DNA from: Campylobacterota bacterium
Lineage (GTDB): Bacteria > Campylobacterota > Campylobacteria > Campylobacterales > Sulfurovaceae
Reading direction: 5' to 3'
NCBI GenBank assembly: GCA_013153055.1
Contig: JAADFE010000116.1
Location: 1-33,431, forward strand
DNA: 33,431 nucleotides
Part shown: in pieces, positions 6,782-11,423 of the stretch
How the letters are laid out: every line of letters begins with the position of its first letter
Numbering within the stretch: the stretch's first letter is position 1
Position numbers and translations under genes: made by a program
Notes under the pieces: generated by a model
What the model saw: only the letters and a program-made list of their open reading frames with translations
Told to the model about the DNA's origin: nothing
The model's database searches: none

Positions 6782-6851
6782 GAAATTATTAAAATTTTAG
6801 ATTATTTTATTTATTTAAAATAAATACACCATTCTTACACAATCTTTGTGT

Positions 6852-6857
6852 TATAAT
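6852..6857 (+). promoter_or_regulatory. Extended -10 promoter element (TGTTATAAT)
   Basis: Perfect TATAAT with TGn extension 7-9 bp upstream of the first base of a hairpin at 6866. Confidence 0.6.
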
Positions 6858-6863
6858 ACCACT

Positions 6864-6990
6864 ATGAGAGCTACAGATTACTTCTTCTCCCCTTTTAGGT
6901 AAGTAGCTCTCTGGAAATGATAACTTTTAATTTTATAACTTATTCTCCTCCTCCTTTTGTATATAAAAATTAAAAGTTACCTATTTAAAT
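6864..6990 (+). ncRNA. Candidate sRNA: two stem-loops with C/U-rich loops
   Basis: SL1: 6866-6874 GAGAGCTAC pairs with 6903-6911 GTAGCTCTC, inner UUACUU/AGGUAA, loop CUUCUCCCCUUUU. SL2: 6921-6934 TAACTTTTAATTTT pairs with 6966-6979 AAAATTAAAAGTTA, loop includes UUCUCCUCCUCCUUUU. Promoter immediately upstream. Confidence 0.55.
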
Positions 6991-7036
6991 TTTAAATATT
7001 TGGGTATAATCAATCATATTTTTTTAGGATTAAAAA

Positions 7037-8767
7037 GTGAAGTACCTTATAGATTTTATAGAAAAAACAGATGTAGAAAAGACTCAAATATATCCAGATT
7101 TGAAATGCTCCCCAAAAGAGGCAAAAATATTACAGTTTATCTCTCAAAACTTTGTCAAAGGGATAGAAGAGACTCCTGTTATAGAGATTTTGCAAAATTT
7201 CAAATCAGAGGGTTATGAGTATCTCAATCATCTCTCTACTGTTAAAAGATTAATGGATTTGGGTTGGATTGTACAGATTAGTTTTGGTCAAATCAAAATC
7301 CAAGAGGTATCAAAGCTAGAGATACTAAATACCTCTGTTGCCCCTAGTACAGCTCTACTAAGACTTCTTGAAGAGGGTTCTATGGAGGTTGCACTCCCAC
7401 AAATCAAACCATATACAGACCACCTAGAGTATCTCCAAGACCAGTTTGATGTGATTGAACTTCTGCATCAGATGGCTGTATCCAAGCAGGGATTTACAGA
7501 TAGCTCACTCACTCTAGGACGGCTAAAAAACAAACTAGTACTTCTAAGCAAACGGATTGAAGAGAGGCTCAAAATAACAGATGAGCCTATAGTTGTAGAG
7601 GAGTTTTTCAAAGAGAAAGAGTTAGATGAAAAAGAGCAGAAGATATTTCTAGCACTACTAAAAGAGGAGTACTCAGGTGGAGAGGGTCAGCTAAGAGATA
7701 TGAATACTCTAATAGAGATAATATCTATAGATGAGTATGATAAAATTAGAAACCGTGCATTGCTTGAAGATGGCTCAAAGCTTCTGAGTGAGGGGATTAT
7801 AGATTATGAAGAGATACTCAATATGTTTGGAGGGATTAGCCGTTCATTTTATCTCCAAGAGGATATACTACAAAAAATCATCCATCCAAACAAAAAGAAA
7901 AAGGTGACAAAACTCAAATTAGATAAGCTAGTAGAAGAGCAAGATATATTTGAGTGTCTAAAACCGACTACAGATTTAAATGATGTAGTTTTGCACCCAT
8001 CAACTAAAAAGACGCTAGATACTATCATAAAACAGGTTGACAAAGAGGTGTTTGCTAAACTAAAAGCTTGGGGTATCAAAGATAAGAGAAAAGGGATAGA
8101 TGCTAGGATTATATTCTATGGTAGCCCTGGTACTGGTAAGACAATGACTGCTATGAGTTTAGCCAAGACGCTCAAACGACCGATTTTGAGTTTTGACTGT
8201 TCTAAGATTTTATCTATGTATGTTGGAGAGAGTGAAAAGAATGTACGAAAGATATTTGATGACTTTAAGCTTCTCAGCAAAAAGGCAAAAGTTGACCCAA
8301 TCTTGCTTTTGAATGAGGCTGACCAGTTTCTAAGTAGTAGAATAGAGAGAGTAGGAAGTGGTGCTGAGACCATGCACAATCAGATGCAAAATATCTTCCT
8401 AGAACAGATAGAGAAGTTTGAGGGTATCTTGATAGCTACTACCAATCTACTTGATAATATAGACAAAGCCTTTTCAAGAAGATTTAACTACAAAATTGAG
8501 TTTAAAAAGCCTGATAGAAAACAGAGAAAAAGATTATGGCACTTTATGTTACCTGAAAATGCAGACTATGATGAGAAATTTAGTGTAGATGAGTTGGCAA
8601 AATATGAGCTAACAGGTGGGCAGATTAATCTGATAATTCGTAATACTGCCTACAAGGTAGCTATAAAAGATGAGAGTCTATTTACTATCGAGGATTTTTT
8701 AGAAGAGATAGAAAAAGAGTTAGGTAGCAACTTTGATTCTAGTAAAAGTATGGGATTTAGGGTTTAA
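7037..8767 (+). CDS. AAA+ ATPase with N-terminal winged-helix-like region
   Basis: ORF 576 aa; Walker A GSPGTGKT; Walker-B-like LLLNEAD; ATTNLLDNIDKAFSRRF sensor region. Confidence 0.85.
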   Translation: MKYLIDFIEKTDVEKTQIYPDLKCSPKEAKILQFISQNFVKGIEETPVIEILQNFKSEGYEYLNHLSTVKRLMDLGWIVQISFGQIKIQEVSKLEILNTSVAPSTALLRLLEEGSMEVALPQIKPYTDHLEYLQDQFDVIELLHQMAVSKQGFTDSSLTLGRLKNKLVLLSKRIEERLKITDEPIVVEEFFKEKELDEKEQKIFLALLKEEYSGGEGQLRDMNTLIEIISIDEYDKIRNRALLEDGSKLLSEGIIDYEEILNMFGGISRSFYLQEDILQKIIHPNKKKKVTKLKLDKLVEEQDIFECLKPTTDLNDVVLHPSTKKTLDTIIKQVDKEVFAKLKAWGIKDKRKGIDARIIFYGSPGTGKTMTAMSLAKTLKRPILSFDCSKILSMYVGESEKNVRKIFDDFKLLSKKAKVDPILLLNEADQFLSSRIERVGSGAETMHNQMQNIFLEQIEKFEGILIATTNLLDNIDKAFSRRFNYKIEFKKPDRKQRKRLWHFMLPENADYDEKFSVDELAKYELTGGQINLIIRNTAYKVAIKDESLFTIEDFLEEIEKELGSNFDSSKSMGFRV

Positions 8768-8768
8768 G

Positions 8769-11423
8769 ATGTCAAAAATATTACTCTTTATGGCAACACT
8801 ATCAGCCATATATGCCGAAACGGTAGTGGTACCAGATAGATATGAGATTATAGATGATGAAAATAGTAGCTATATATTCTCAGATGAGTATAGAGGAGTA
8901 CTACCTGATATCAAAGAGTATCAAGATAGAGTTATCGCTCAATACAGTAGTGAGTTTGGGTTTAATTTTGATGATAAGTTGCGTGTTGGGTTAGCTTCAC
9001 AAAATAACCAAATAGCCAACGCTTTTTCTACTCAGATACCATTTAATTCACAGCTTTTTTATGGAGCTGGGGCTGGAGAGGTTGATTATTTTTGCTCTAC
9101 CTCTTGGCTCAAAGGTATAATCCTACATGAGACAGCTCATAATTTTCAGCTAAATCCAAAAGAGAGCCTCTCCTCTAGGATTAGTCACAAAATTGTAGGT
9201 AATACACCGTTTACTTTTTTAGGACCTCTGCCTATATTTCCTATACCAAATATTATGATAAATAGCTTTGTGTTAGAGGGAAATGCAGTACTAAATGAGT
9301 CTAGGTTTGGTATAGGTGGACGGCTATATAGTGGATATGCACTAGCTGAGATAGTATCTATGGCAAAAGCAGACAAGATTAAACCAGAGAGAATGTATAA
9401 TCAAACGCTAGATTTTCCATATAGTGAAAATCACTATCTAGTTGGTGGATTTTTTCAACAGTTTTTGGCTAGAAAATATGGAGTCAAAAGGGTAAATAGC
9501 TATTTTAAGATACACTCAAAACAGTTTTTTCCATTTTTTACAAGTAGTGCTTTTAAAAATACCTTTGGTAAGACATTTAAAACCCTCCTAAAGGAGTTTG
9601 TAGATGATGTCAAAACTAAACATGCAAATTTCAAAGCCACAAAAGGCAAAACAATAGCTACAAGTCAGCTATTTGTTCCTATGAATAGAACAGATAGAGA
9701 GATATATACTCTAGTTGGAGACTACAAGAGCTACCCAAAAATATTACAATTTGATAAACAGAGTAAACAGGTCAGCTTTAAAAGAGGAGCATATAGAACA
9801 GGAGAGCCATTTAAAATAGATAATAGATACTACACATTAAGCTCTGTAAAAACCTCTCCAACCAAAATCAAAATGGGGCTAATAGATGATAGTGCATATC
9901 TACAAAAAGGAAGTAGTGGCAAAGTCATCCAAGGATACCTATCCAATAACCAAACCGTATATTTTGATATACCAAAATCACTAGATACTCCTCATATCTA
10001 TATAGATGGTAAATTTTATGATACAAGTAGCTCCTCTGTATATATCAATGGGGATGATTTGTACTATTTTAAACAAAATGGTCACACTAGAACTCTATAT
10101 AAAAACAAAAAGCCTATATTTGACTATAGTGGCTACTATGGATTTATAACAGATATTGGAGATGATGGTAGTATATATTTTATATCACTTACTCCTCATG
10201 GAAGTACAGCATATAGTTACTCCAATGGTCAAATCAAAAGAGTAGCTTTAGGAGATGATGTTATAGAGTTTAAACTTATCAATCCCAACGAGGCATTAGT
10301 TGCTACAATAGGAGCAGATGAGTATAAATACCAGATAATCAAAATCAATCCAACAGTAGCCTCTGTCCCTACACCTGATTATTTTTTAGAAGATAGCAGT
10401 AGTTTAGTTACTCAATCAAAAGATTTCTCTAACAATCAAAACAGCAAACTAAAAGCAAAAGAGTATAACCCTATAACCAATTTAGAGTATAGCTCACTAG
10501 AGCAGTATATGGGATATAGTGATGATGAAGGAGGTTTTCTAAGTTTACAGGCTAATTTTGTTGACCCTCTTATGCAAAACTCATTAGCAGTACTACTCTC
10601 AGCAGATGAAGAGAGCGTTGTAGGTGGAGTTGGATATAGCAATAATGCTCACGCTTTAGAGTTTGGAGCAGAGGGTTATCTAGTATCTCACAATGATGAC
10701 TATTATCATGCAGATGAGAGAGATAATGGATACTCTGCTTATTTAAAACTACCACTAGTAGCCACAGGATATTGGAGGGCTTTTACTACTCTTGATTATA
10801 CAAAAGATTTTGATAATATATACCGTAAACCACTCTCCCTATCACTAGATATAAACAATATAAAGCAGTTTGGAGTTAGTAAATACCCAAATAGTCTAAA
10901 TAGTCTAAATCTATTTATCTCACAAGATAGAGGAGAGAATAGTTATGGAGGCTCATACTCTTGGGGATATGGATTACCATATCAGAGTTTTATCTCTTTT
11001 GATGCTACATATATGAAGAGTAATACTATAGATGAATATAGAGAAAAGGGTATAGAGATAAACCATAATTTTGGTGATATACAGACAGAGAAAGCCTCTA
11101 TTAGTATGCCAACTATAGAGACGACTCATTATGCAAAAGAGCTAAAAGTAGGAGGGATAGGAGTTTATAAAACTATTGATGCACCTCTATATTTTTTCTC
11201 ATTTCCTCTATCTATACAAAGAGAATCTATATATCTAAAACAGAAACTATATGATATTGATTTTGCAAATGAAAATAGAAAATACAGTGAGACAACTCTA
11301 GGGCTAGAGAGTGACTTTGTATTTTTCAATAACTTTGTAGCACCTATAAAGTTTGAGCTTTTATATAATCCTGATGTAAAAGACCAGACACAGTTTAGGA
11401 TTTTGATGGGGATGGAGTTTTGA
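8769..11423 (+). CDS. Exported HEXXH metallopeptidase-like protein with propeller-like middle and probable outer-membrane beta-barrel C-terminus
   Basis: ORF track starts at 8733; start at 8769 preferred because MSKILLFMATLSAIYAE is a signal peptide. Motif HETAH, downstream LEGNAVLNES, repetitive beta-rich segments, C-terminal ...ILMGMEF. Confidence 0.65.
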   Translation: MSKILLFMATLSAIYAETVVVPDRYEIIDDENSSYIFSDEYRGVLPDIKEYQDRVIAQYSSEFGFNFDDKLRVGLASQNNQIANAFSTQIPFNSQLFYGAGAGEVDYFCSTSWLKGIILHETAHNFQLNPKESLSSRISHKIVGNTPFTFLGPLPIFPIPNIMINSFVLEGNAVLNESRFGIGGRLYSGYALAEIVSMAKADKIKPERMYNQTLDFPYSENHYLVGGFFQQFLARKYGVKRVNSYFKIHSKQFFPFFTSSAFKNTFGKTFKTLLKEFVDDVKTKHANFKATKGKTIATSQLFVPMNRTDREIYTLVGDYKSYPKILQFDKQSKQVSFKRGAYRTGEPFKIDNRYYTLSSVKTSPTKIKMGLIDDSAYLQKGSSGKVIQGYLSNNQTVYFDIPKSLDTPHIYIDGKFYDTSSSSVYINGDDLYYFKQNGHTRTLYKNKKPIFDYSGYYGFITDIGDDGSIYFISLTPHGSTAYSYSNGQIKRVALGDDVIEFKLINPNEALVATIGADEYKYQIIKINPTVASVPTPDYFLEDSSSLVTQSKDFSNNQNSKLKAKEYNPITNLEYSSLEQYMGYSDDEGGFLSLQANFVDPLMQNSLAVLLSADEESVVGGVGYSNNAHALEFGAEGYLVSHNDDYYHADERDNGYSAYLKLPLVATGYWRAFTTLDYTKDFDNIYRKPLSLSLDINNIKQFGVSKYPNSLNSLNLFISQDRGENSYGGSYSWGYGLPYQSFISFDATYMKSNTIDEYREKGIEINHNFGDIQTEKASISMPTIETTHYAKELKVGGIGVYKTIDAPLYFFSFPLSIQRESIYLKQKLYDIDFANENRKYSETTLGLESDFVFFNNFVAPIKFELLYNPDVKDQTQFRILMGMEF

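Follow-up and report, generated by a model that had tools for sequence, protein, structure and literature searches.

A multicopy family of two-hairpin RNAs with pyrimidine-rich loops and a shared putative operator in one genus of Sulfurovaceae

The 33,431-nt stretch of Campylobacterota DNA analysed here (the window) carries, upstream of an AAA ATPase gene, one copy of a real, strongly conserved and previously uncatalogued multicopy sRNA family of a single Sulfurovum-like genus (Sulfurovaceae MAGs). Comparison of sequences among genomes established how the RNA is structured, that it is conserved in several copies, and that it has a promoter and a shared operator, and we regard the structural and promoter claims as near certain; the conservation with covariation, the multicopy state and the shared operator had not been seen in an earlier sequence-only reading of the window and were found by this comparison. 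Our main reading, to which we assign a probability of about 0.62, is that the family comprises Hfq-independent sibling sRNAs with a response-regulator-like promoter, whose C/U loops act on AAGGA ribosome-binding sites (RBSs). These would be independently transcribed, trans-acting RNAs of ~100-130 nt. Transcription would start at the base of the first stem-loop (SL1), driven by a promoter with a CAC-N8-CAC operator (11-bp period, resembling that of an OmpR-type regulator) or, in most copies linked to the AAA gene, by a plain extended -10. SL1 and the second stem-loop (SL2) would expose C/U loops (UUUUCCC, UCCU, CUCC) able to pair with the (A)AGGA RBSs of mRNAs and lower their translation, with no need of Hfq. 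The regulon would include genes for cytochrome c and for SoxY, and in sister genera those for OmpA/glycine-zipper envelope lipoproteins. Predicted parts of this proposal are transcription, the identity of the regulator, pairing with RBSs, repression as its outcome, and the targets.

In the window, the predicted sRNA spans positions 6864-6981 (+ strand, as for all window features below), which is the match to covariance models R1 and R2, with its 5' end expected at ~6864. It is preceded by an extended -10, TGTTATAAT, at 6849-6857 and by a putative operator at 6827-6840, a CAC-N8-CAC direct repeat with an 11-bp period that is a degenerate form of CACRATTNNNNCAC lying 11 nt upstream of the -10. 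SL1 (6866-6911), read directly, folded and backed by covariation, has a 9-bp outer stem in which GAGAGCTAC (6866-6874) pairs with GTAGCTCTC (6903-6911), an inner 6-bp stem (6878-6883/6897-6902) and a 13-nt loop of pyrimidines only, CUUCUCCCCUUUU (6884-6896). A linker at 6912-6918, the GGA of which is not conserved across the family, leads to SL2 (6919-6981), which rests on the same three lines of evidence; it has a perfect 14-bp stem (6921-6934/6966-6979) and the loop ACUUAUUCUCCUCCUCCUUUUGUA (6938-6961), which includes CUCCUCCUCCUUUU. The fold has an MFE of -25.9 kcal/mol (z = -3.8), and none of 200 shuffled sequences was equally stable. It is possible that SL2 serves as a weak terminator; the T-richness after it is modest (49% versus 37%). 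The extended -10 and the two stem-loops described by the sequence-only reading are indeed present.

The element was searched in 60 relatives, and syntenic copies were recovered 5' of the AAA gene within the same genus. An alignment of 20 copies (A1), in which 96.7% of cells keep the pairs, gave covariance model R1, and a search with R1 turned up additional copies at non-syntenic positions of these genomes. In a second alignment of 103 copies (A2), which was fitted to the model so that its figures lean in the model's favour, two-sided compensatory changes occur at 22 of 23 stem pairs, and cells with such changes number 323 against a shuffled mean of 86.6, a value reached in none of 500 shuffles; sliding the pairing partners destroys this signal. 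The sequence-only reading had named a lack of compensatory stem substitutions among relatives as an argument against it, and such substitutions were found; the covariance-model search that it had proposed gave a strongly positive result. It had also considered the element a candidate new sRNA and suggested an Rfam scan. In agreement with the former, an Rfam 15 scan of the window yielded only SRP RNA and a tRNA above the gathering threshold, and permissive Rfam scans, applied to the element and to six loci, gave chance-level matches only.

With model R2, the RNA was detected in 33 of the 34 genomes of the genus at 1-10 copies per genome (~143 in total), including four copies in the source genome of the window. 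When 300 genomes of the order were searched with R2, four matched, two of which belong to the same genus; outside the genus there were only weak candidates at three loci of sister genus g4 and a match on one probably stray contig, and the RNA was absent from the AAA loci of other Sulfurovaceae. The match in another family of the order (G390) comes from a contig of 861 bases, the MAG of which has 6% contamination, and is probably stray. One of the weak g4 matches (L154, ~2018-2154, genome G140) has its own TATAAT, the loop UUUUUCCUCCUCCC and CUCCCCCCC in SL2, and may possibly be a distant family member outside the genus. At six loci, arrays of at least two like-oriented copies, separated by 0.3-9 kb and set between ordinary genes, look like the result of local duplication.

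A multicopy, palindromic sequence with some copies near contig ends, and some others spaced by 0.3-9 kb in a single orientation, could also be a DNA-level element, such as a small inverted-repeat mobile element or a recombination site, rather than an RNA. We consider this the least probable reading of all, close to negligible, as the paralogs have diverged yet retain their pairing, up to 21 genomes share orthologous positions and nearly all copies have a promoter at fixed spacing. A phage or plasmid origin was rejected, since BLAST searches against phage and plasmid records returned no match to the element.

The AAA ATPase gene (7037-8767; PF00004 and winged-helix domains) lies outside the RNA unit and has a separate -10, TATAAT, at 7005-7010. 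This second promoter, noted in the sequence-only reading, is borne out by comparison, as the relatives that carry the RNA upstream, 21 syntenic genomes in all, each have such a TATAAT of the gene's own, mostly 30-41 nt 5' of the start codon. Of the genus genomes, 28 have readable DNA upstream of the AAA gene, and in 21 of these the RNA precedes it, which would suit a mere 5' leader or cis-regulatory element of that gene; in the other seven, the gene occurs with no RNA detected upstream. Of 121 family copies, 119 are located outside longer ORFs, the flanking genes show all four combinations of orientation, and the neighbour clusters are varied; most copies stand beside genes unrelated to the AAA gene. 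The separate promoter, the AAA genes without the RNA and the unrelated contexts rule out a role solely as AAA leader for the family, and this reading is highly improbable for the window element as well. Together with the fixed 6-nt promoter spacing described below, these observations agree with the sequence-only suggestion that the sRNA is a unit independent of the AAA gene. An 896-aa ORF without a Pfam match (8733-11423) overlaps the end of the AAA gene, and its product is probably a partner of the ATPase.

The promoter evidence is independent of the model fit, because promoter bases are absent from the covariance models. TATAAT or TATACT is correctly placed in 105 of the 119 copies with readable upstream DNA (2.4 in shuffles), and in 96 of these 105 the hexamer ends exactly 6 nt 5' of the RNA. 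The CAC-N8-CAC repeat is found within the preceding 50 nt of 86 of the 119 copies (0.8 in shuffles), mostly 10 nt before the -10, where it takes the place of a -35. A search of the 34 genus genomes for the full pattern CACRATTNNNNCAC-N10-TATAMT was positive in 33, and a reversed control pattern was found once. The window copy falls outside the strict operator pattern with its spacing of 10, as its repeat stands at a spacing of 11 and differs in one base, and a generic sigma-70 scan does not list the window sRNA promoter because there is no -35. Most AAA-linked copies have no operator and only the extended -10; therefore, the siblings are probably wired differently at the promoter level. OmpR-family response regulators use direct repeats with an 11-bp period over the -35, and by this analogy the operator would fit a putative OmpR-type response regulator.

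Among the 82 operator sites listed, 52 directly precede a model-detected RNA, and others in this genus (g1) precede forms of the RNA that consist of SL1 alone or of a bare hairpin or that the model missed (seven loci), a small cytochrome c gene (eight loci) or a SoxY gene (four loci). This arrangement suggests that one regulator may serve sulfur oxidation, electron transfer and the sRNAs. In sister genera of Sulfurovaceae, CACRATTNNNNCAC-N10-TATAMT heads operons for OmpA/glycine-zipper lipoproteins and other exported proteins, with sites recorded at ten loci, and the envelope-type regulon thus seems older than the sRNA family. At two loci in one genome (G004), the operator is followed by a bare hairpin of the form GGATATAA-UUUUUUCCUUUUUUU-loop without the family stem sequence, which is possibly a minimal or an independently formed member.

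The sequence-only reading had named loss of the C/U character of the loops in relatives as an argument against it; the SL1 apical loops proved to be 63% U, 24% C, 12.5% A and 0.7% G, that is, 87% pyrimidine. Stems and loop order vary across the family, with UCC, UCCC or UCCU cores kept, and the SL1 loops are mainly UUUUCCC, UUCCU and CUCCU. Pairing with AGGAGG, as that reading had it, covers the matter in part only, since starts in the genus mostly use (A)AGGA: in a sample of them, AGGA occurs in 47% and GGAGG is almost absent (0.5%). In computed pairing, the loops bind RBS windows 2.2 kcal/mol better than windows further upstream, and 45 of 61 loops, which are related by descent and not independent, beat composition-matched shuffles. 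The margin of real over shuffled loops at RBSs is small (-2.22 versus -1.87 kcal/mol), and for the window's own loops it is not significant. RBS pairing is thus plausible, supported by computed complementarity short of proof. A search for Hfq found no match in the genus, with control genomes positive, and from this and the computed pairing we infer that the pairing would be Hfq-independent. No conserved specific target was found among the mRNAs tested by computed pairing. The mRNA of the OmpA-like lipoprotein pairs no better than average RBSs bearing a Shine-Dalgarno (SD) sequence and was rejected as a special target; the AAA mRNA, for which complementarity can be seen by eye in some relatives, pairs weakly with the window copy (-4.7 kcal/mol).

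The sequence-only reading had envisaged a global SD-binding or a protein-sponging RNA. Its first part is plausible in the computed sense just given, and its second was neither supported nor excluded by the comparison. The pyrimidine loops would then have a protein and not mRNAs as their partner, be it a regulator that binds RNA or the translation machinery, and the siblings would act as a sponge. This would agree with the high copy number, with loops kept pyrimidine-rich and not as a single exact sequence, and with bare U6CCU7 hairpins under the same operator; however, the loop order suits RBSs better than that of shuffled loops, UCC cores persist rather than just any pyrimidine mix, and no candidate protein was identified. 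We therefore hold the sponge to be rather unlikely and continue to prefer sibling sRNAs that pair with RBSs.

It is also conceivable that the transcript is a leaderless mRNA whose 5' AUG opens the frame of a small hydrophobic peptide (MRVxxFFPFF...), for instance a type I toxin. An AUG begins 98 of 121 copies, the frames are mostly 10-18 codons long, and the AAA-linked subtype keeps the loop in a single frame. However, the CUUCCU loop motif is spread over the three frames (10, 8 and 12 occurrences), 23 copies have no AUG, the frame ends vary, and the SL1 stem encloses the AUG, with non-AUG variants retaining the pairing. The frame counts of CUUCCU and the copies without AUG in particular make a conserved leaderless peptide unlikely, and we rate this reading as very improbable beside that of RBS-pairing sRNAs.

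Few sRNAs have been worked out in Campylobacterota, to which these data add an RNA family that is uncatalogued and covaries very strongly. The family is tied to a concrete operator common to sulfur-oxidation, cytochrome and envelope genes. A bolder extension of the main reading, possible but on the doubtful side, is that the family forms a genus-specific, Hfq-free layer of control, in which 1-10 paralogous hairpin RNAs, each connected in its own way to one envelope/sulfur-respiration operator, would jointly set the translation of many AAGGA-led mRNAs. The hairpin-only members, even bare U6CCU7, would then make the loop the whole active unit, repeatedly renewed in evolution.

Several known RNAs resemble this family. 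RepG of Helicobacter acts with the C/U-rich loop of its terminator on a G-repeat of an mRNA leader (PMC8295292). The present family is likewise a Campylobacterota RNA with a C/U-rich loop, and it would act, as RepG does, on a purine-rich mRNA leader; in contrast to RepG, both loops are C/U-rich here and the RNA is multicopy. In rhizobia, the alpha-r14/NfeR1 and cuckoo/CcsR RNAs have anti-SD loops, several copies and stress-type promoters; alpha-r14 has three hairpins with the ultraconserved CCUCCUCCC, and the CcsR RNAs share their transcript with a DUF1127 gene (PMC10746234, PMC10253847). Here as there, single-stranded anti-SD loops are carried on divergent stems. In contrast to alpha-r14, the loops here are variable, U-rich UCC loops: SL2 of the window carries CUCCUCCUCC, the SL1 loops of the family differ from CCUCCUCCC, and the loop motif thus speaks against membership in the cuckoo family. 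Each copy here has its own promoter and the neighbour clusters vary, with no partner of the CcsR kind noticed among them. For the cuckoo family and RepG, both invoked in the sequence-only reading, membership is not supported, and the likeness is one of way of working.

Several operator sites read TTCAC-N6-TTCAC, which we take to fit the DccR box, and we know of no sRNA in the DccRS regulon. In the genomes of the genus, no regulator was identified for the operator. In C. jejuni, DccRS comprises a regulator of the OmpR type that acts on putative periplasmic and membrane proteins (PMC9449129). In Listeria, LhrC1-5 are multicopy sibling sRNAs under LisRK control, whose CU-rich loops pair with SD regions; the Listeria RNAs have three CU-rich regions, and their targets were shown by experiment (PMC5880928). 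The Sulfurovaceae RNAs similarly have several siblings per genome (1-10 copies, 33 of 34 genomes) and CU-rich loops, and they share a putative operator with the 11-bp period that a response regulator would use. The likeness in SD pairing consists here of computed complementarity only. They differ from LhrC in having two hairpins and unrelated sequences, in belonging to another phylum and in that some siblings have no operator. LhrC, alpha-r14/NfeR1, cuckoo and RepG are thus the closest RNAs in way of working, none of them an established homologue. If the main reading is true, response-regulator-driven siblings with anti-SD loops would be a parallel development of these bacteria, of Listeria and of rhizobia, and the loops would have been retained while stems and promoters changed.
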